Assembly: GCA_017469355.1 (NCBI GenBank)
Contig: JAFUGM010000018.1
Coordinates: forward strand, 1 to 34,085
Source of the DNA: Solobacterium sp.
Lineage (GTDB): Bacteria > Bacillota_I > Bacilli_A > Erysipelotrichales > Erysipelotrichaceae
Direction of reading: 5' to 3'
Length of the DNA stretch: 34,085 nucleotides
Each line of letters starts with the position of its first letter. Within the stretch, counting starts at the first letter, position 1. Positions 22,214 to 33,640 of this stretch are shown in pieces. The position numbers and the translations under genes are program-made. The notes under the pieces were generated by a model. The model did not search any database and had not been told where the DNA came from. It saw only the letters and a list, made by a program, of their open reading frames with translations.

Positions 22214-23230
22214 TTATACAGTTTTTGTTTCCTGCTGTTTATGCCGGTATTCTTTTGGCGTGCATCCATATGCATTGAAAAATTTTCGATAGAAAAAATT
22301 CATATTTTCGTAGCCAGCTTCATGAGCGACTTCGACAATTGTCAGTTTTGTGTTTTTCAGAAGTGAGGTAGCGTAATAAAGCTTCTGCTTCTGTACAAGG
22401 TCTTTAAAAGTTATATTCAGCTTCTGCTTGATTAAGGTAGACAGATATGTGGGGTTCAGATTAAAGTGATCAGCTGTTTCTGAGAGTGTACATGTTTTGA
22501 AATGATCTTCTATATAGATAAGTACAGATGAAATGGAAGTGGTGTTCATTTTTCTGTCCCGTATTTCGTTATACTTTGAATAACAGAGAATTAGTTCGCA
22601 TAGAACGAGATTGAATAAACTGTTGGCTATATCATTTGAACAGTAGGACGGTTCGATCAGCTCACAGACCAGTTCATTCATGAAAGCAGAGAAACGACGG
22701 CTGTTTTCAGAATGAAAAAAGATATAATTCCGATGGTCTTTTTCCTCACTGATTGCGTTAATAAAGAATTCAGTGATGATACTGTCATGAGAGAGTCTTG
22801 AGAAAAATGAACTATTGAGATATTCCGGCTGGATCATAATGCTGTACAGAATATCTTCTTCCCGCAGGAAACTGATTTCATGAGGTGTGTCTTTGTCAAT
22901 CAAAACACATTGACCTTGTTTCATTCTGTATTCTCTGCCATTAATCGTCTGGACGCAGTTGCCGGAATACATATAGTTAAGCTCAATCCAGTCGTGAACA
23001 TGGTATGGTGTCACGCAGAAACGTGAATTCTTTTTGAAATACATGGTGGCGGATTCGTTTCTATGAGGATCATTTTTGACATTATTCAAAATATAAACAC
23101 TGCCGACAACGGGATTATCTGATTCCCGTTTTTCCAAAGTGTCAAAGAACGTGTTTCTTCCTTCTGCTTTGTATTTCTTCTCACTTTCTGTGACATGAAA
23201 AAGGTAATCATTTAATTGCTGTGGTGTCAT
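22214..23230 (-). CDS. AraC family transcriptional regulator
   Basis: The 338-residue regulator has an N-terminal cupin-like sensing domain (VTPYHVHDWIELNYMYSG, GQCVLIDKDTPHEISF) and a C-terminal AraC DNA-binding domain with two helix-turn-helix units: TLSETADHFNLNPTYLSTLIK, then TIVEVAHEAGYENMNFFYRKF ending in GCTPKEYR. HVHDWIEL places it with sugar-sensing AraC regulators of Firmicutes. GGAG precedes the ATG on the minus strand. It faces away from the PTS/glycosidase operon across a 134-base region and very probably controls it. Its DNA is clearly AT-richer than the housekeeping genes next to it. Confidence 0.93.
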   Translation of the reverse strand: MTPQQLNDYLFHVTESEKKYKAEGRNTFFDTLEKRESDNPVVGSVYILNNVKNDPHRNESATMYFKKNSRFCVTPYHVHDWIELNYMYSGNCVQTINGREYRMKQGQCVLIDKDTPHEISFLREEDILYSIMIQPEYLNSSFFSRLSHDSIITEFFINAISEEKDHRNYIFFHSENSRRFSAFMNELVCELIEPSYCSNDIANSLFNLVLCELILCYSKYNEIRDRKMNTTSISSVLIYIEDHFKTCTLSETADHFNLNPTYLSTLIKQKLNITFKDLVQKQKLYYATSLLKNTKLTIVEVAHEAGYENMNFFYRKFFNAYGCTPKEYRHKQQETKTV

Positions 23231-23279
23231 GTATCTCTCCTGATTTGTATGTACTTATATATTACAAGACACCTGAAAA

Positions 23280-23310
23280 AATGACATAAAATCAAAAAAC
23301 TATGGTCATT
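23280..23310. promoter_or_regulatory. Inverted repeat between araC-like gene and PTS operon
   Basis: AATGAC (23280-23285) and GTCATT (23305-23310) are perfect inverted arms 19 bases apart, and the right arm touches the candidate -35 of the PTS operon. It is a plausible operator for the divergent AraC protein, although AraC sites are often direct repeats. Confidence 0.35.
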
Positions 23311-23337
23311 CATGTGGTTTTTCCTGGCGACTATACT
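23309..23337 (+). promoter_or_regulatory. Candidate promoter of the PTS/glycosidase operon
   Basis: TATACT (23332-23337) follows TTCATG (23309-23314) at a 17-base spacing, 27 bases before the EIIBC start. The weak -35 suits activator dependence. No clear CcpA cre box was recognised. Confidence 0.4.
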
Positions 23338-23364
23338 CAAATCGTAATCAGGGAGGACAAACGG

Positions 23365-24738
23365 ATGAATTACAAAGAAACTGCGGAACAAATTGTCAAT
23401 GCAGTCGGCGGCAGATCGAATATCAGCGGCCTGACACACTGCGTAACAAGACTGAGGTTTGTGCTGGTAGACGAAGGAAAGGCCGACACGGAATTGATTA
23501 AATCATTACCTGGTGTTATGGGTGTTATTCGGCAAGGCGGTCAGTATCAGGTCGTGATTGGAAATGAAGTAACAAATGTTTTTGATGAAGTTGCGGAAAT
23601 AACCGATATTGGAAGTGCAGTAGATGGAACTAAAGAAGAAAAGTCGGAAGGAAGCAAGAAGGGGCTTTGGGAAAGAATCATTTCTGCTATATCCGGTATT
23701 TTCACTCCGCTGTTACCGGTATTCGCTGCATGCGGTATTTTAAAAGGATTGCTGAGCTTATGTACAGGTACGGGAATTCTTAATGGAACAGAAGGGGTCT
23801 ATACTGTTCTGTACGCAATTGCAGATTCTATTTTCTATTTCTTCCCAGTTGTGGTAGGTGCAGCTGCTGCAGAAAGATTCAAATTAAATAAATATGTTGG
23901 AATGATCATCGGGGCAGCTATGATGTACCCCAGTATCATTACAGCTGCTTCATCTGGAGAATCATTCAGCTTCCTTGGCATTCCAATGATGCTGTTCAAT
24001 TATTCATCTTCCATTTTCCCGGCAATACTCGCAGTATTTGCGGCATCTTATATCAATAAGCTGGCTAAGAAGATCTGCCCTAAAACCATTGCCTATTTTG
24101 GTGTGCCGTTTATCACAATCTCCATTACTGTAATTCTAGCGCTGTTGATTATCGGACCGGCAATGCTTGGTCTGTCGTATGTACTTGCGACAGCGATGAA
24201 CGCAGTATACAGCTTCTCACCTGTTCTCTGTGCACTTCTGCTTGGAGGACCATGGGTAGTTCTTGTTATGCTTGGTCTGCATTGGGCATTTATTCCGATC
24301 TTCCTGCTTGAACTGACAAGTAACGGCAGTTGCTCCATGATGGGACTTTTCGCCGCAAATCAGTTTGCCATGGCGGGAGCGATGTTCGCGGTTGCTCTGA
24401 AAGCGGGTAAGGATGCGAATATGAAGAATCTTGGAATCACTTCCGCAATCACCTGTATTCTTGGGATTTCTGAGCCTGGTATCTATGGTGTGCTGCTTCC
24501 TTTGAAAACACCATTTATTATGAGTATCATTGCTGGCAGTATTGGTGCTGTGCCGGCTGCGTTAATGGGCACAGCAGTTTATTCATTCAGTGCCAGCGGT
24601 ATATTCGGCATTCCTGGTTTTATCAACCCTGCGGGCATTGATGCTGGCTTCTATGGCGCAATCATTTCCTCTATTGCAGGTTTTGTTCTTGGATTTATCT
24701 TGACATATATCATTTCAAAAAACACAAAGGAGGCATAA
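23365..24738 (+). CDS. PTS glucoside-family EIIBC transporter
   Basis: The 457-residue protein imports and phosphorylates a sugar using the phosphotransferase system. Residues 1-80 are the EIIB domain, with the phosphocysteine C26 in [11 protein letters not shown] charged linker (EEKSEGSKK) leads to an EIIC domain of about ten membrane segments, containing the family motif [18 protein letters not shown]. This places it in the beta-glucoside/sucrose/trehalose group. There is no EIIA domain, so a separate glucose-type EIIA must donate phosphate. The ATG at 23365 follows GGGAGGA; the longer open frame starting upstream overlaps the promoter. It is the first gene of a four-gene operon, two bases from the next. 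Confidence 0.93.
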
Positions 24739-24740
24739 CA

Positions 24741-25577
24741 ATGAAGCAGACACAGAACGGACATTTCTATAAACAAGAAATAAGCGACGGATTCTATATG
24801 ATCAGCTGCCCGGAATGGGATATGGAAAAAGAAAAAAGCATCAATCTTTGGATGATCGAAGGATCTGAAATGTCGGTTCTGGTCGATGCTGGAATGAAAC
24901 TGGGTGGCCTCAAGGAGTTTTTGAAGGAAATTACGGACAAGCCGCTTCGAGTTGTTGTGAGTCATGGTCACTTTGACCATATTGGCAATATCGACGACTT
25001 TGATGAAATCTGGATGAATCATGAAGATATTCCGCTTCTGAGTGATCCGGTATTTGAGAAATATGGCGCTCATGGATACCACGGAACGATTCATGATATC
25101 AATGACGGTGAGGTATGGAATCTTGGTGACCGGTTAATCACACTGATACGCATCAGAGGTCATACTGGAGGAAGCGTATTGGTCCTTGATCACAAAAGCA
25201 GTGTTCTGATATCCGGAGATACCGTGGCCAGAGATCTTCTTTATATGACTGAGGATACCATTCCTCTGAATCAGTTCTTCGATGAGCTTCTCAAACTTGA
25301 TGCATATGAATATGATGCGGTTGCTTCTGCACATGATCGCTTCTTACTTCCTTCTTACCAGCATCACTACATGATGAAAACAATTATTCAGGGACTGAAA
25401 AATGATCAGAGTGACAGTGTCTGGCAGATGTGGGGACAGGAATTCTTTACGATACACGCCGGCAGCGGGCATAGTGATCCAAAGTATCTTTCCATCTCAC
25501 TTCCTACTGACAAAAAAGAACAGCTGAAAGATGAAATGATTGCCTGGGCAGAGAAAAATTGGGAGAAAATACAATGA
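24741..25577 (+). CDS. Metallo-beta-lactamase-fold hydrolase
   Basis: The 278-residue cytosolic enzyme has the MBL-fold metal signature SHGHFDH (H75, H77, D79, H80), a third ligand H141 in RGHTGGS, and bridging D160 in LISGDT, so a binuclear zinc or iron site is expected. GHTGGSVLVLD is typical of the glyoxalase II/lactonase-like branch. Its role in a sugar locus is uncertain; hydrolysis of an ester, thioester or lactone is possible. The ribosome site AAAGGAGG lies in the last codons of the PTS gene, and the 3' end overlaps the glycosidase start by ATGA, so the three genes are translationally linked. Confidence 0.87.
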   Translation: MKQTQNGHFYKQEISDGFYMISCPEWDMEKEKSINLWMIEGSEMSVLVDAGMKLGGLKEFLKEITDKPLRVVVSHGHFDHIGNIDDFDEIWMNHEDIPLLSDPVFEKYGAHGYHGTIHDINDGEVWNLGDRLITLIRIRGHTGGSVLVLDHKSSVLISGDTVARDLLYMTEDTIPLNQFFDELLKLDAYEYDAVASAHDRFLLPSYQHHYMMKTIIQGLKNDQSDSVWQMWGQEFFTIHAGSGHSDPKYLSISLPTDKKEQLKDEMIAWAEKNWEKIQ

Positions 25578-28219
25578 AGCGACTTCTGGATAATTTGAAT
25601 CATCAGGAGGATAGTCACGTATTGCCTTTCTTCTGGCTTCATGGCGAGGAAGAAAACGTCCTAAGAAGCTATATGGCCAGGATGGCAGAGAGCGGAATTC
25701 GCTCTCTTTGTCTTGAGGCTAGACCACATAAGGACTTTCTGAAAGATGGATGGTGGCATGATCTGGACATCATCTTCGATGAAGCTGAGAAACGTGGAAT
25801 GAAAGTGTGGATTCTCGATGATTCACACTTTCCGACCGGATATGCCAATGGCATGATCAAGGATGTATACCCACAATATCGCAAACGTTTTCTGGCTTGC
25901 AGACAGCTGGACTTTGCCGGTCCGCTCAAGTTCGGACAAGTCAATGTGAGTTATGCGTTTAAGGACAAAGAGGATGAATTGATTGGGGTGTATCTTGCAA
26001 AAAAGAAAGGTTTCAATGCGATTGATCCTGATACTCTGCGTGATATAACGGGTCAGGTCTATGATCTGAATGTTCATTCTGAAACGAACATACCGTTCGC
26101 TTCCATTGTTCACAAGGCTGTAAATGTAGATATACCGGAAGGTGAGTGGCGGATTCTTATACTGACTTCCACATTCATGGGATCTGAAAAAGAAACTGAA
26201 AATTATCTGAATCCGATTGACCCGCAGGCGGTAGATGTTTTGATCAATACTGTTTATGAAGCACATTATGCGCGATACCATCATTTGTTCGGAACTATTA
26301 TTCAAGGATTCTTTTCTGATGAACCGCGATTTGGCAATGTTCATGGTTCTGAAGGCTCTATTGGCCGTAAGGAAATGGTGCTTCCCTGGCGCAGGGATAT
26401 GAAAGATCTGCTCACAGAAGATATACGGAAGAAAAAAATAAACATTGATACATCACTGTATCTGCCGCTGCTGTTTGTGGATGGCGGAGAAAAATCACAT
26501 CAGATTCGTTATGCATACATGGATCTGGTCAGTGAACTTTACGCAGAAAACTTCTCGGTGCGCATTGGTAAATGGTGTGAAGACCGTGGTGTGAGATATA
26601 TCGGCCACACAATTGAAGATAATAACTCCCACGCCAGACTTGGTTATGGCGCAGGTCATTTTTATAAAGCAATGCGTGGTCAGCATTTTGCCGGTATTGA
26701 TGTTGTGATTCATCAGCTGATGCCGGGGATGGATCATACCTATAATCGGGCATTGACAGCCAATGGCTGGGATGGAGAATTCTTTCATTATATGCTTGGT
26801 AAACTGGGCGGCTCACTCAGCCAGCTGGATCCGAAGAAAAAAGGTAATGCAATGTGTGAAGTATTCGGTGCCTACGGCTGGGCAGAAGGGAACCGGCTGA
26901 TGAAATGGATTACTGATTATATGCTCGTAAGAGGGATCAATGAGTTTGTCCCGCATGCGTTCAATGCAGCAGCATATCCTGATCCTGATTGTCCTCCCCA
27001 TTTTTATGCCCATGGCAAAAACCCTCAATATGAAGATTTCGGACTGCTCATCAGATATATGAATCGAATGGCGCATCTGCTTCATGATGGGCGCCCGGAA
27101 GTCACTGCTGCGCTGCTATACCATGGAGAAGCGGAATGGTCGGGCGAATACATGCTTTCACAGAAACCGGCAGCTGAAATGGCAAGAAATCAAATTGATT
27201 ATCTCATCGTTCCATGTGCCGATCTTCTGAATGCCGAGATAAATGCGGATACCTTTACCATTTCCAACAATGCATTTTCCTGCCTTGTCATACCATATGC
27301 TGAAGCATTGCCATTTGCTCTTATCGAAAAAATCACTGAAATTGCTGAGCAGGGGATTCCCGTTTATTTCTGTGGAGAATTGATGGAACGAAGCAGTGAG
27401 GGACATGATATTTCCTCATTACGCAAGCGACTTGAAAAAACAGTGTGTTTTACATCGCCTGAGCAGCTTGCCACACATCAGAAAAAAGATGGATTCTGCC
27501 GTTATGAGCTTTCTTCTTATGAGCCTTATCTAAGAACATACCGCTATCATGAAACGGATGGGACCGTTCTGATGATTACAAATGAAGGGCTTAAAGAGAT
27601 TAACTGCACCATGAAAACAGATCTGAAATCCTATACTTATCGCTATGATGCATTTGAAAACAGACTGTTTCACCAAACTGTTCGTAACGGGTTAATTGAT
27701 ATCAATCTTTCACCGTATGAATCTCTTGTACTCATTCTTTGTGATGAGGAACTGTGTGCAGAAACAAATCGGTCAATTGATTCTGCAGATATTAAGAAGC
27801 TGAAGGGCCCATTCAGGCTTAGTTTCTGCGGCGCTGGAGAAAAGGAGTATCGAGATGAGCTGATTCTCGATCAGCTGAAACCTGTCAATCTGATCCCTGG
27901 CAAAGAGAATTTCTGTGGCAGAATTAAATATGAAGTATCGTTTGATATGAACGAACCCACACCCGCATATATCTGTCTTGATACTGTGTACGAAAGCGCA
28001 CATGTATGTTTGAATGGGCAAAAAGAACATATCAGAATTTCTCCGCCATATAGATTTGATATTACGGATGATCTTAGACCAGGAGAAAATAAGCTTGTCA
28101 TTGAAACTACAACAACCGCTGTTAGGGACAATTACGATTTTTTGTCACAATTCATTGCCCTTGAACCAACTGGTATCACGGAGTCAATCTATCTTGAGAC
28201 AGGAAGAAAGGACAAGTGA
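25574..28219 (+). CDS. Large cytosolic glycoside hydrolase, GH106-like (alpha-L-rhamnosidase-related)
   Basis: The 881-residue enzyme begins with a TIM-barrel domain: MAESGIRSLCLEARP, WWHDLDIIFDEAEKRGMKVWILDDSHFPTGYA in sequence, then FFSDEPRFG with D249-E250, GHTIEDN, and MCEVFGAYGW with E429, followed by VRGINEFVPHAFN. These acidic residues are catalytic candidates. The last 130 residues form a beta-sandwich of the GH2/GH106 type: YICLDTVYESAHVCLNGQ, then PPYRFDITDDLRPGENKLVIE. There is no signal peptide. The layout resembles GH106-like enzymes, but a GH106 name is provisional and the sugar specificity is unknown. The start at 25574 has GGGAGAA six bases upstream; a TTG at 25559 is rejected. 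It overlaps the MBL gene by four bases. Confidence 0.8.
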   Translation: MKRLLDNLNHQEDSHVLPFFWLHGEEENVLRSYMARMAESGIRSLCLEARPHKDFLKDGWWHDLDIIFDEAEKRGMKVWILDDSHFPTGYANGMIKDVYPQYRKRFLACRQLDFAGPLKFGQVNVSYAFKDKEDELIGVYLAKKKGFNAIDPDTLRDITGQVYDLNVHSETNIPFASIVHKAVNVDIPEGEWRILILTSTFMGSEKETENYLNPIDPQAVDVLINTVYEAHYARYHHLFGTIIQGFFSDEPRFGNVHGSEGSIGRKEMVLPWRRDMKDLLTEDIRKKKINIDTSLYLPLLFVDGGEKSHQIRYAYMDLVSELYAENFSVRIGKWCEDRGVRYIGHTIEDNNSHARLGYGAGHFYKAMRGQHFAGIDVVIHQLMPGMDHTYNRALTANGWDGEFFHYMLGKLGGSLSQLDPKKKGNAMCEVFGAYGWAEGNRLMKWITDYMLVRGINEFVPHAFNAAAYPDPDCPPHFYAHGKNPQYEDFGLLIRYMNRMAHLLHDGRPEVTAALLYHGEAEWSGEYMLSQKPAAEMARNQIDYLIVPCADLLNAEINADTFTISNNAFSCLVIPYAEALPFALIEKITEIAEQGIPVYFCGELMERSSEGHDISSLRKRLEKTVCFTSPEQLATHQKKDGFCRYELSSYEPYLRTYRYHETDGTVLMITNEGLKEINCTMKTDLKSYTYRYDAFENRLFHQTVRNGLIDINLSPYESLVLILCDEELCAETNRSIDSADIKKLKGPFRLSFCGAGEKEYRDELILDQLKPVNLIPGKENFCGRIKYEVSFDMNEPTPAYICLDTVYESAHVCLNGQKEHIRISPPYRFDITDDLRPGENKLVIETTTTAVRDNYDFLSQFIALEPTGITESIYLETGRKDK

Positions 28220-28220
28220 G

Positions 28221-29114
28221 ATGGATAGTGTGCATATTCTGAACGGGAATGAAAAGACATATCTGAAATTGTTTCTTCTTCCGAATGGACAAGAGAAGCA
28301 GAAACGGCCTCTGGTTCTTATCTGCCCGGGTGGTGGCTATTTGAATTGTTCAGATAATGAAGGGAAACCGGTAGCTGTGAAATTCAATACATTTGGCTTT
28401 CATGCGGCAGTTCTTTTCTATAGTACTCAATTCTCGAATCCTGGCGGTTCATACCGTGACGCACTCAATGATCTCGCGGAAGCAGTGTCATGGATCCACG
28501 AAAATGCTGAAACATCAGGAATTGATCCGGACAAAATTTTTCTGATGGGTTTTTCTGCCGGCGCCCATCTCAGCGCAATGTATGGCAACACATTTACTGA
28601 AGGAAACTTCGGAAATACATATGAATCGGGAAATCTGAGAATTGCTGGTTGTATTCTTGGCTATGGGCTGCTGGATACGGAGATGTTTGACGTAGATACT
28701 GCTCTCATGATCGCAAATGAGGAAGCTGCAGATATGAATCAGATTACTGGCGAGCAGAGTTTTATCAAATTCAAGCAATTTCGCGACTTATGTTACACAG
28801 CAATGTATTCAACTACCAAACCCGAGAAGGATATGTTGAAAGCAGCGTCGCCGTTAGAGCATATTCATTCCTCAAGCGCACCGTGCTTTATTTGGACTAC
28901 ATATCAGGATGATCTTGTGAATCCTATGCAGAGTATTCAATATGCCGAACGGCTTTATAAAAATCATGTGCCGTGTGAACTGCATTTGTTCCCATACGGA
29001 AGACACGGCTGGTCACTGTTTGATGAGACAACTGGAAATAGTGAAAAAGAAATCAATATCCATACTGCCCGATGGGCTTTTCTGGCAGCAGAGTGGATGC
29101 GTACACGAAATTGA
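28221..29114 (+). CDS. Alpha/beta-hydrolase carbohydrate esterase (acetylxylan esterase/BD-FAE-like)
   Basis: The 297-residue enzyme shows the oxyanion-hole segment LICPGGGYLNCS, the nucleophile elbow GFSAGAHLS with S112, a candidate acid in TTYQDDLVNP, and the terminal histidine in RHGWSLF. This pattern is typical of cytosolic esterases that remove acetyl or other acyl groups from oligosaccharides. The ATG at 28221 begins one base after the glycosidase stop codon, with GAAAGGAC upstream; an in-frame extension back to 28014 lies inside the glycosidase and is rejected. It closes the AraC-controlled operon. No terminator is obvious after it. Confidence 0.87.
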   Translation: MDSVHILNGNEKTYLKLFLLPNGQEKQKRPLVLICPGGGYLNCSDNEGKPVAVKFNTFGFHAAVLFYSTQFSNPGGSYRDALNDLAEAVSWIHENAETSGIDPDKIFLMGFSAGAHLSAMYGNTFTEGNFGNTYESGNLRIAGCILGYGLLDTEMFDVDTALMIANEEAADMNQITGEQSFIKFKQFRDLCYTAMYSTTKPEKDMLKAASPLEHIHSSSAPCFIWTTYQDDLVNPMQSIQYAERLYKNHVPCELHLFPYGRHGWSLFDETTGNSEKEINIHTARWAFLAAEWMRTRN

Positions 29115-29526
29115 TCAAAGCTAGGGAAGTGAGAGAACTGTTTTTGCGAAGATATTAGGAGAAGCTACATCTTTCCTGTTAAAAGAACCCTATCACGGTA
29201 AACAAGTTGAACGTATAATTCTATATTTTCGAGCGGCAGTTTCGGCTGCGGCCTTTTGTGGCAGGCTAGCTGCGAATATTGAAAATGTGGCACATATCAA
29301 CGAAGCGCAGCTCGGAATATTTTACCTGCCTTGAAGGCAAGGTCAAACTGTTAGACGTACAATTCGTGGGAAGTCGGCGAGGTTTTTGTGATATAAGTTA
29401 GTTATGTCTAACATCATTCACTAAGTGATGAGATTAAAGAAAGGGAACAGAGAAGAGTTTGCACAGCGAATCGCTTAGATGTCAGTTGTCATCAAGAGAA
29501 TCTGATTTGAATGGAGGGAATAAACC
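29115..29526. other. Gene-free stretch with inverted repeats
   Basis: These 412 bases hold no recognisable gene. Visible structure is a TGTTAGAC (29349-29356)/GTCTAACA (29406-29413) inverted pair 49 bases apart, a GTTAG/CTAAC palindrome at 29398-29413, small GC-rich hairpins near 29233 and 29330, and TATAAT at 29214-29219 without a good -35. It separates the sugar operon from the next operon and may contain the latter's promoter or decayed mobile DNA. Confidence 0.5.
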
Positions 29527-30033: not shown

Positions 30034-30093
30034 AAGAACCAGGCAGAATCGTGTGTACGCAATATGACTTACAAGTGCAACAGGAGGTATTCG

Positions 30094-31023
30094 ATGAGTG
30101 TCAGCGCAAAAGCTGCAGTAGCCGTGCTTCACCTGGCAAAGCGGCTGAGATTGATTCCTAATCCTGGGGATCTTGACAGTGAATTTGCTAAGGCAAGGGA
30201 ATATAACCGAAAGCATCCCTACCGTGAGCCCCATGATCAGAAGGCGCGGTATCGAACAGACTATGTCAGTGGTTATCCCGTTCTTTCGATCACACAACCT
30301 GGTATAACACCAGAACATGCCATCCTGTTTCTCCATGGCGGAGGAAATCAGGATACCTGGAAGCCGGAAGTATCCTTTGCCCGAAATTATGGAATGCGTA
30401 CCGGCACAGAGGTGTTTTATCCCATTTATCCGCCATTTACGGAGCGACCTGTTAAAGAAACGGCAGATCTTATCTATGCGGTTTATCAATCCATAGCGGT
30501 GAAGTATGGTGCCGCAAATATTGCGGTGGTCGGTGGTTCCTATGGCGGTTTTCTCGCAATGCAGTTAATTACGTGGATCAACCGGAATGGAACTGAGGTG
30601 GATATGCCGGGACTGCTGATCATGAATTCTCCCTTTGCGTTTCCGGAAACTGCGGAAGAATGGAAGCTGGCTGAGGCGTATGAAACAGATGATCTTATGG
30701 TACCGGAAGGCACCTTCCGATTGATGATGGATGGAATCATGCGGACAGATCCTCTGACGCCTGAATATGCCTTGTATCCGCGAAAAATGGATTTTCGCCA
30801 TGCGCCAGAGACATATATCTTCTATGCCAAGGAAGCCTGCGCCTGTGTAGCGGATGCGATACAACATGCCTATGAACGGGATGGGGCGGTGCTTCATATG
30901 CATAAAGAACCGGGTATGATGCATTGTTATGCCTGCGCTCCCGTATTTCCGGAGAGTAAGCGAGACTTTGACAGGCAGATTCATGCGATCAAGCAAAGCT
31001 TTGAAACAAAATCATCAGAATGA
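30094..31023 (+). CDS. Alpha/beta-hydrolase (HSL/esterase-lipase-like)
   Basis: The 309-residue enzyme has the oxyanion motif LFLHGGGNQDTW, the nucleophile elbow GGSYGG with S149, and a late GMMHCYACAPVFP supplying the probable histidine. LHGGG and the GxSxGG elbow place it near hormone-sensitive-lipase-type or tannase-like esterases; the substrate is unknown. The first 45 residues (KRLRLIPNPGDLDSEFAKAR) form an amphipathic cap region without a signal peptide. AGGAGG at 30082-30087 sets the ATG at 30094, six bases away. It is the middle gene of a three-gene operon. Confidence 0.86.
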   Translation: MSVSAKAAVAVLHLAKRLRLIPNPGDLDSEFAKAREYNRKHPYREPHDQKARYRTDYVSGYPVLSITQPGITPEHAILFLHGGGNQDTWKPEVSFARNYGMRTGTEVFYPIYPPFTERPVKETADLIYAVYQSIAVKYGAANIAVVGGSYGGFLAMQLITWINRNGTEVDMPGLLIMNSPFAFPETAEEWKLAEAYETDDLMVPEGTFRLMMDGIMRTDPLTPEYALYPRKMDFRHAPETYIFYAKEACACVADAIQHAYERDGAVLHMHKEPGMMHCYACAPVFPESKRDFDRQIHAIKQSFETKSSE

Positions 31024-31063
31024 AGTGAATGACATAACAACAGAAAGAAGGACAGCAGACAGT

Positions 31064-31957
31064 ATGAAAGAAAAATACACGATAGAACAGGATGGATTTG
31101 TGGGGTATTGGCATCCATCAGAAGGGCATAAGGATATGGCATTGATCGTATTTCCTGGCTCTGGGGCGGATTACGAACTTACACGTAAAGGTTCTGAGTT
31201 TCTTGGCAACGCTGGATGGAACAGACTGCTTGTGGCATTTGCGGGCTGGGATGGACTACCGGAAGATCCGGTTCTGGCTCCTGTGGAATATGCGGAGAGG
31301 GCGATCCTGGTATTGAAAGAAGCAGGATTTAAAAGAATTGGCGTATACGGTATCTCTGCCGGCGCAAAATTCGCTATCACAGCCGCATCATTACTGCCGG
31401 ATATCAGTCTTGTTATCGCCGCTTCCCCATTTGACTATACGACCGAAGCATTTCACGGGACAAAGGCATTGAATGAGTCAACGTTTTCATTTCGAGGGGA
31501 GCCATTGCCATTTGATCCGACGGTTACCCTGCATCGGAATATCATCAGTGTTCTGCTTCGAACCGCATGTTCCAGAAAGTATGGAATACGGCGTGTGCTG
31601 CGGGGATGTTATGAGGAAAATGTACAGACTGAGAATGCGCGCATCAAGGTAGAACATATGCATGCGGATATCCTGATGCAATGCCCTGGCTACGATGACT
31701 GCTGGCCATCGGATGAGGCTGTGCCAAGAATGGAGAAGATTTTAATGGAAGCAGGATATCCCTATAGACATAAAGCGACAGTATATGAGAAAGGCAGTCA
31801 TCTGTTGTGTGGGGATCTTTCTTCCAGCCCAGATTATCTGAAGTCCATGAAGAAGATCCTTCAGGCGGAATATGTAGATCAGGATGCCTGTAATCAGGCT
31901 CGTGCGGATAGTATGAAAGAGGCACTTGAGTTTCTGGAAGGATGGGACCGTCCCTGA
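31064..31957 (+). CDS. Alpha/beta-hydrolase, acyl-CoA thioesterase/BAAT C-terminal-like
   Basis: The 297-residue enzyme resembles the catalytic C-terminal domain of bile acid-CoA:amino acid acyltransferase and acyl-CoA thioesterases. It shows ALIVFPGSGADYE as oxyanion region, GVYGISAGAKFA with nucleophile S98, SLVIAASPFDY, and YEKGSHLLCGD with a late histidine. The BAAT family usually has Cys or Ser at the nucleophile; here it is Ser, so hydrolysis is likelier than conjugation. AAGGA stands about 11 bases before the ATG at 31064; the longer frame runs back into the previous gene. It is followed by a terminator at 32047. Confidence 0.82.
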   Translation: MKEKYTIEQDGFVGYWHPSEGHKDMALIVFPGSGADYELTRKGSEFLGNAGWNRLLVAFAGWDGLPEDPVLAPVEYAERAILVLKEAGFKRIGVYGISAGAKFAITAASLLPDISLVIAASPFDYTTEAFHGTKALNESTFSFRGEPLPFDPTVTLHRNIISVLLRTACSRKYGIRRVLRGCYEENVQTENARIKVEHMHADILMQCPGYDDCWPSDEAVPRMEKILMEAGYPYRHKATVYEKGSHLLCGDLSSSPDYLKSMKKILQAEYVDQDACNQARADSMKEALEFLEGWDRP

Positions 31958-32265: not shown

Positions 32266-32419
32266 TTAAAACGTTCTGCTTCCCTCTTGTGTCATAGTCC
32301 GTTTAATCGAAATGAGCACGCACAGGAAACATATTGCGATGCCGGATATAACCCAGAAAAATGGTCTGATACAGGGTGCAGGGAAGACTTACCGGGATTT
32401 ATGTAGGAAAGGAGTCCCT
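32150..32419 (+). ncRNA. Candidate bridge RNA region of the IS110 element
   Basis: IS110 transposases work with a structured non-coding RNA transcribed from the non-coding end of the element, with loops that pair to donor and target DNA. The approximately 270 bases upstream of the transposase are gene-poor and contain a CCGGGT (32209-32214)/ACCCGG (32240-32245) stem. The exact RNA ends and loops were not resolved. Confidence 0.35.
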
Positions 32420-33640
32420 ATGAGAGGACCAGTCATTACGGTGGATGTATCCAAAGGTACCTGCCACTATCAGCCTTTCTTCGAGAAAGGCAAACCGCTC
32501 CGCAAGCCGAAGGTATTAAACGATACTAATGAAGGGTTTGCGGAACTTATAGCAGCCGTCGAGAAACTGAAAGAAAAGAGCGGATGTGATATTGTACCGA
32601 TTATATTTGAAGCTACAGGTATTTATCATCGTTGCCTTCAGAAGTTCCTGGATGACCATGAAATACCTTATTACATCATTTCTCCGCTGCTATCTGCCGC
32701 ATATCGGAAGACTAATCTTCACGGTAATAAGACCGATGATCTTGACTGCGCGCACATCGCAAAAGCTTATTACGATGAAGATCATCTGGATACGTTTCAG
32801 AAGCAGTCGGACCGATTCATCAAACTTCAGCGTATGAATCGCTATTACGAAGTGGAGTTAAACCATCTGCGGATGCGCAAAGTCGCATTCAGAAACTCTC
32901 TGGATATCATCTATCCCCGAATGGATAAGTGCTTCAAAGGGCGTGCCAGCTTATACGATCCGGTGCCCATGGAGGTGCTGAAGAAGTATCCTCACCCATC
33001 ACTTCTGCTCAAGCATAAAGAAGAAACGATCGTCAAAGCGGTTGTAAAAAAGACTGACCATAAACCCGCATTTGTCAGTGAAGTAGTGCACAAGATGTAT
33101 GAATGCGCACAGCACTGCTATTCCGGAGCTGATATCAGTGACATAGAAGTTATCAAACTTCCAGGCATGATTGATGAGCTGCAGAGGCAGATGAAGCTAT
33201 GCGACGCTATTCTTGACGAGCTGATTGAAGAAGCACGGAATGTGCCATACTTCGAAAGTATTGTCTCAATCACTGGGATCGGAGCGAATCTGGCGGCCAG
33301 AATCATAGCAGAACTGGGAGATATGAGCAGATTTACAAGCAGGCGTGCAATTGCGGCATATGCAGGATTAAATCCCAAGATTCTTCAATCCGGTGATGTG
33401 GACGGCACACACTTACGGATATCGAAGAAAGGAAACCGTCATCTGCGATGTCTCTTGTACTTAGGAGCTTCGTGCAATTACCGCCTGAAGAAACATGATC
33501 CGATCTATGAATTCAATCAAAAGAAAAGGCAGCAGTCCCAATCACCATTACGGGCTAAAGCTGCCAATATCGCTGCGGCGCATAAGCTGTTGATCATCAT
33601 TTATGCGCTTTCCAAGAGCGGCGAGCTGTACCGCTCCTGA
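32420..33640 (+). CDS. IS110-family transposase (RuvC-like DEDD plus Transposase_20)
   Basis: The 406-residue enzyme has the N-terminal RuvC-like DEDD domain with D9 (TVDVSKG), E64 (FEATGIYH), and D106 and D109 in KTDDLD. A helical middle follows, then a C-terminal Transposase_20 domain: ITGIGANLAARIIAELGD, FTSRRAIAAYAGLNP, and SKKGNRHLR with S335, the expected nucleophile. These are the hallmarks of serine-dependent, RNA-guided IS110 recombinases. The ATG at 32420 follows GGAAAGGAG by five bases; the open frame extends 36 codons upstream but has no family match there. The reading frame is intact, so the element may be active. Confidence 0.95.
   Translation: MRGPVITVDVSKGTCHYQPFFEKGKPLRKPKVLNDTNEGFAELIAAVEKLKEKSGCDIVPIIFEATGIYHRCLQKFLDDHEIPYYIISPLLSAAYRKTNLHGNKTDDLDCAHIAKAYYDEDHLDTFQKQSDRFIKLQRMNRYYEVELNHLRMRKVAFRNSLDIIYPRMDKCFKGRASLYDPVPMEVLKKYPHPSLLLKHKEETIVKAVVKKTDHKPAFVSEVVHKMYECAQHCYSGADISDIEVIKLPGMIDELQRQMKLCDAILDELIEEARNVPYFESIVSITGIGANLAARIIAELGDMSRFTSRRAIAAYAGLNPKILQSGDVDGTHLRISKKGNRHLRCLLYLGASCNYRLKKHDPIYEFNQKKRQQSQSPLRAKAANIAAAHKLLIIIYALSKSGELYRS

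Follow-up and report, generated by a model that had tools for sequence, protein, structure and literature searches.

The AraC-PTS-GH106 combination carried by a Solobacterium genome is a common module of Firmicutes and not a one-off. The copy studied here likely forms an operon under AraC control whose substrate is a rhamnosyl-beta-glucoside, probably acylated, which would be imported by the PTS, de-rhamnosylated in the cell by a GH106 enzyme and completed by GH1 enzymes acting in trans. The parts are of known kinds and the module is undescribed in the literature found, while the set that includes an MBL-fold enzyme and an esterase was found only in the window, i.e., the whole stretch of 34,085 nucleotides that was analyzed (Solobacterium sp. 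GCA_017469355.1, contig JAFUGM010000018.1, positions 1-34,085, forward strand). The sequences show which genes are present, how the operon is laid out, that the core is conserved, and that the genome carries rhamnose genes.

All five genes named in the preliminary description are present at 22214-29114, with the AraC gene on the minus strand followed by four genes on the plus strand. The features are as follows:

22214..23230, minus strand: AraC-family regulator with a cupin-type N-terminal domain and HTH, divergent (Pfam HTH_18 66 bits, AraC_binding 41 bits)
23365..24738, plus strand: PTS EIIBC of the beta-glucoside type without an EIIA domain, 457 aa (PTS_EIIC 93 bits, PTS_EIIB 53 bits)
24741..25577, plus strand: MBL-fold metallo-hydrolase (Lactamase_B 68 bits)
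25574..28219, plus strand: predicted GH106 (Ram106B-like) alpha-L-rhamnosidase, 881 aa (PF17132, profile matches, fold)
28221..29114, plus strand: BD-FAE / lp_1002-like alpha/beta-hydrolase esterase, 297 aa (BD-FAE 87 bits, GFSAGAH)
29233..29249, plus strand: weak terminator-like hairpin 3' of the esterase gene (consensus scan only)

The EIIBC open reading frame was listed as 23302-24738. AGGGAGG precedes the ATG at 23365 and the EIIB profile begins at residue 22 of the reading frame, which makes 23365, and not 23302, the almost certain start. The glycosidase starts with the ATG at 25574, downstream of the listed TTG start at 25559, and the esterase starts at 28221 with GAAAGGA ahead of its ATG; the listed ATG of the latter (28014) falls within the glycosidase gene. 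The tight spacing reported earlier for the plus-strand genes was confirmed, with +2 bp between EIIBC and MBL, -4 bp (an ATGA overlap) between MBL and glycosidase, and +1 bp between glycosidase and esterase, so that these four genes look like a single transcription unit. Each enzyme of the locus retains its usual catalytic motifs. No signal peptide was seen on the locus enzymes upon inspection by eye, which places the breakdown in the cytosol. Outside the operon, two more alpha/beta-hydrolase genes (Abhydrolase_3 and BAAT_C-like) occur at window positions 30064-31957, 3' of a small membrane protein, and an IS110-family transposase lies near the window end at 32312-33640.

The GH106-like assignment made earlier for the glycosidase held against PF17132, a profile search, and the fold. 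PF17132 was matched with 30.2 bits, just over its gathering score of 29.0 bits, and the match covers profile positions 450-623 only. Searching the PDB by phmmer with the single glycosidase sequence returned chance matches (WbgU) and GH106 only weakly; the link by sequence needed a multi-homologue profile. Built from 30 homologues, this profile matched RHA-P (6q2f, 3e-25) and BT_0986 (5mqm, 3e-23), the two solved GH106 rhamnosidases. The comparison of a structure model with GH106 structures, which the preliminary description had proposed, pointed to the same two proteins: Foldseek matched the AlphaFold model (pLDDT 89) over its full length best to 6q2f and 5mqm, with 1e-36 and 2e-32, respectively. 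Superposition gave a Z of 27.3 over 785 residues (rmsd 5.1) for 6q2f and of 24.8 over 735 residues (rmsd 4.6) for 5mqm, and the next family by fold was GH42 with a Z of 20.9 over ~540 residues. The barrel and its following domains span residues ~10-725 and a C-terminal jelly-roll spans ~735-881. On the strength of this model, the 881-aa glycosidase is assigned the GH106 alpha-L-rhamnosidase fold.

Four GH106 enzymes of thermophiles have been described, all four of which hydrolyse pNP-rhamnoside, and the Ram106B subfamily among them, proven in Thermotoga and Thermoclostridium, differs from BT_0986 by Asp-Glu in place of Asp458-Ser, His in place of Glu538, and Asp in place of Glu561, while the base Glu593 is retained (PMC6828813). 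In the window enzyme and 29 relatives, D249-E250, H345, D376, and E429 are invariant. E429 falls near the BT_0986 general base E593 in a weak profile alignment that is not residue-exact, and an extension of this alignment by three residues places H345 on E538; the correspondence of the remaining residues is less precise. Set against the published description of the subfamily and not against its sequences, the residue pattern is consistent with Ram106B without proving it. Tm_Ram106B, Ts_Ram106B, and Cb_Ram106B (PMC6828813) share with the locus enzyme the GH106 type and the lack of a signal peptide, and the invariant residues of the locus enzyme are consistent with the Asp-Glu/His/base-Glu pattern described for them. 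TM1074 was discussed there together with ABC transporters, whereas the locus enzyme goes with a PTS and an AraC regulator.

Identity to the solved GH106 structures is only ~16%, which, together with the marginal PF17132 score and GH42 as the best non-GH106 folds, would fit an enzyme whose specificity has shifted away from rhamnose (e.g., to L-fucose, L-arabinopyranose, or some other deoxy sugar) in an operon that takes a different disaccharide. We regard such a shift as improbable, as the Ram106B-like residues are invariant and rhamnose genes adjoin the module in seven loci.

EIIs of the beta-glucoside/glucose family as a rule import their substrate with phosphorylation at glucose C6, and the PTS is usually tied to GH1 or GH4. 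The locus EIIBC has the EIIB and EIIC domains and the EIIB cysteine (GLTHC) of a beta-glucoside-type PTS EII. It scored 464.5 bits against TIGR01995 (beta-glucoside PTS IIABC), below the cut-off of 614.7 bits, and aligned with positions 1-452 of 618 as the EIIA part is absent. EIIA must therefore be supplied from elsewhere, and three EIIA-Glc domains are encoded elsewhere in the genome. The source genome encodes 20 GH1 enzymes and 22 glucose-family EIIB domains. Judged by coordinates, a GH1 gene lies within ~3 kb of 12 of these 22 EIIB genes, and the locus EIIBC is not one of the 12. Neither GH1 nor GH4 was found in the window cluster, and the gap noted in the preliminary description is thus a real feature compared to the other EIIB genes of this genome.

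The regulator scored 56 bits against the RhaS equivalog (cut-off 288) and 49 bits against RhaR (cut-off 525), missing both, and by these scores is taken to be of the AraC type but other than the rhamnose activators RhaS and RhaR. Near-matches to catabolite (cre) sites numbered 21 in the window against a chance expectation of 18.7, with none in the AraC-EIIBC gap. The same gap held only weak inverted repeats as candidate operators, and the promoter scan gave a result not above chance.

Homologues of the glycosidase were scanned for in 84,980 species genomes (GTDB), yielding 37 loci with 38-52% identity. Nearly all were from Firmicutes, including Clostridia, Bacilli, Paenibacillus, Enterococcus, Listeria, and others. 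Within a few genes of GH106, 33 of the 37 loci had a glucose-family EIIBC, in many cases fused to an EIIA. Relatives of the AraC regulator (28-50% identity) were likewise found at 33 of the 37 and in most cases pointed away from the PTS/GH106 genes. If the probability of an EIIBC at most three genes away is roughly set at 5%, a rate taken from 22 EIIB domains in an estimated ~2,500 genes, co-occurrence in 33 of 36 loci has a P of ~4e-39. No description of the AraC-EIIBC-GH106 combination was found in the literature searched, the coverage of which was partial.

Ten loci from the source genome's own family were added to the scan loci, giving a set of 47. GH1 occurred nearby in 16 of these and was missing from 31, some of which are short or cut contigs; the two GH1 enzymes tested (L033 and L054) both matched 6-phospho-beta-glucosidase models. 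RhaB with RhaA and/or RhaD adjoined the module in 7 of the 47 loci, which belong to Enterococcus, Paenibacillus, Robertmurraya, and three genomes of the same family. The module context lends strong support to a predicted alpha-L-rhamnosidase that works inside the cell on a beta-glucoside imported by the PTS. The earlier view of PTS plus GH106 as an unusual replacement for GH1 was not supported by this comparison, with the pairing present in 33 of 37 loci, several of them with an adjacent GH1, and 20 GH1 genes elsewhere in the genome. Two same-family loci carried further sugar genes, namely GH106 and GH1 with apiose-type catabolic genes (L056:679-10364) and GH106 and GH1 with an apiosidase and GH43 (L051:1642-11739). 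Their gene sets suggest branched apiosyl/rhamnosyl glucosides as substrates.

We infer the substrate, the order of the steps, and the role of the MBL-fold enzyme as follows. The EIIBC, fed by a general EIIA-Glc, would import the glycoside and phosphorylate its glucose at C6, as expected from its family. The cytosolic Ram106B-type GH106 would then strip alpha-L-rhamnose from the phosphorylated glycoside, an activity predicted from its family, fold, and operon context. Judging by context, the esterase and possibly also the MBL-fold enzyme would take off acyl groups, or else other ester/lactone groups, either ahead of this step or following it. One of the 20 GH1 enzymes encoded elsewhere in the genome would finally split the remaining 6-phospho-beta-glucoside. 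Rutinose lacks a free C6-OH on its glucose, for which reason rhamnosyl(1-2, 1-3 or 1-4)glucosides, and not rutinosides, are predicted as substrates, with neohesperidosides or phenylethanoid glycosides as candidates. Nothing on point for rutinose or neohesperidose with PTS was found in the literature searched. Of the earlier proposal that an acylated, perhaps rhamnose-containing glycoside is imported, PTS import, rhamnose, breakdown in the cell, and an esterase pointing to acyl groups are supported, while GH106 as an unusual GH1 substitute is not. The Lactobacillus acidophilus loci LBA0225-0227 and LBA0725-0726 (PMC5698550) likewise import and phosphorylate plant glucosides by an EII. They have a GH1 phospho-beta-glucosidase in the locus and handle mainly undecorated glucosides, whereas the window locus has decoration-removing enzymes instead.

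The lack of GH1 in the operon and in those 31 loci, short or cut contigs included, would also fit uptake of a free rhamnosyl disaccharide (e.g., neohesperidose from other microbes), which GH106 alone would convert to rhamnose and glucose-6-phosphate with no GH1 required. This is on the unlikely side, as it leaves the esterase and the MBL-fold enzyme with little to do and GH1 does occur near 16 of the 47 modules.

For the favored glycoside pathway, the released rhamnose would enter an operon on contig 76 of the source genome that encodes the rhamnulokinase RhaB (over its cut-off), RhaD (over the PRK03634 cut-off), and a FucI/AraA-like isomerase. RhaA is absent from this genome, and rhamnose use would thus depend on the putative FucI/AraA-like isomerase. 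A genome without rhamnose catabolism, first read from the missing RhaA, was rejected once this operon was found. The sole relative of the isomerase among the fetched loci (L003:6542-8035, 32% identity) lies directly 3' of a GH106 gene, which links the contig 76 isomerase to rhamnose. Rhamnose and rhamnoside regulons described before (Rodionova et al. 2013, PMC3870299) share a hydrolase and a transporter feeding RhaA/RhaI-RhaB-RhaD; they differ in that a text search of that paper finds neither PTS nor GH106, and the isomerases described are RhaA and RhaI only. On contig 76 (L103:6948-10626), RhaB and RhaD are accompanied by an isomerase of the FucI/AraA fold instead of RhaA/RhaI, and this enzyme may represent a third kind of L-rhamnose isomerase.

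The MBL superfamily spans thioesterases, lactonases, nucleases, and others. The metal ligands of the locus MBL are canonical (HGHFDH...GHTGG...SGDT...SAHD), and its single-sequence structure model (pLDDT 43) was left unused. The esterase carries its catalytic motifs (GFSAGAH for Ser, DDLV for D, GRHGWS for H) and scored 86.7 bits against BD-FAE (PF20434), above the gathering score of 26.8, and 148.5 bits against the lp_1002 arylesterase (NF052620), below the cut-off of 300. Its PDB relatives are 3hxk and 4bzw (Cest-2923). The lp_1002 and Cest-2923 esterases of L. plantarum thus belong to the same wider alpha/beta-hydrolase family, from which the locus esterase differs by remaining under the lp_1002 equivalog cut-off and by its tie to a PTS operon.

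Relatives of the MBL or esterase were absent from the 37 other core loci, so that both lie outside the core module, and conservation among those loci gives no guide to their role. The exact order EIIBC-MBL-GH106-esterase, which the preliminary description had proposed to look for, was found nowhere besides the window. Strong relatives of the MBL amounted to one among 195 same-family genomes, and a search of 392 genomes of the phylum at E<1e-35 returned only the window's own copy. The two genes look like lineage-specific additions to the core. In L056, from a same-genus genome, an MBL gene is placed between a kinase gene and GH1-GH106, but its product resembles the locus MBL no more closely than housekeeping MBLs do.

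The nearest MBL relative (39-40% identity) forms the N-terminal half of a protein in L097, from one same-family genome, in which it is fused to a BD-FAE domain. This locus reads RpiR-EIIBC-[MBL-BD-FAE fusion]-esterase, its contig has no GH106, and its EIIBC and esterase are 43% and 38-41% identical to those of the window. The fusion (L097:2456-4189, 577 aa) joins an MBL fold and a BD-FAE esterase domain inside a PTS operon and, by its sequence, ties the two predicted functions together in a PTS setting. Another esterase relative lies in the L106 operon with EIIA, a putative antiterminator, EIIBC, the esterase, a second hydrolase, a GH32 sucrose-6-phosphate hydrolase, and fructokinase; GH32 and fructokinase after the hydrolases suggest PTS uptake of acylated sucrose. 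The order EIIBC, BD-FAE-like esterase, and second alpha/beta-hydrolase was observed at both L106:3218-10123 and L107:5436-8646. Esterase relatives also adjoin apiose-type sets (apiosidase, split transketolase, kinase, isomerase) in L099, L100, and L109, and a similar set with no visible apiosidase in L108. The apiosidase is Pfam-confirmed in L051 and L099 only and was read from N-terminal sequence similarity in the others.

Intracellular deacylation of PTS-imported acyl glycosides by the predicted esterase is plausible but unproven, and the MBL-fold enzyme possibly shares in it. More specifically, and only tentatively, an acyl-rhamnosyl-glucoside would be imported intact, phosphorylated, and deacylated by the MBL/BD-FAE pair, with GH106 acting on the phosphorylated form, as one of a wider group of PTS operons with built-in deacylases (for acyl-sucrose, apiosides, and rhamnosides) in the family of Solobacterium. 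The core could instead handle a rhamnosyl glucoside with the MBL and esterase as general detoxifying or chance-recruited hydrolases that have no role on an acyl substrate. Their absence from the 37 other core loci and the rarity of MBL relatives in the family and phylum would fit such bystanders, but the tight junctions on either side and the L097 operon argue for a shared substrate and make this rather doubtful.

Gut bacteria release rhamnose-capped flavonoids and other plant phenolics by means of alpha-L-rhamnosidases. In a survey of gut rhamnosidases, Erysipelotrichaceae responded to rutin and genomes were screened with the GH78 model PF17389 only (PMC7779528), a screen that would therefore miss GH106 enzymes. 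An AraC-PTS-GH106 module widespread in Firmicutes would add a phosphorylating route that starts with import. It would also mean that the PTS, mostly associated with GH1/GH4, supplies enzymes that strip decorations as well. Genes for HAD-type phosphatases, which could dephosphorylate a product, were also observed near GH106-PTS modules at L034:10707-11564, L020:4547-5356, L027:8514-9323, L009:12244-13068, and L011:12249-13073.
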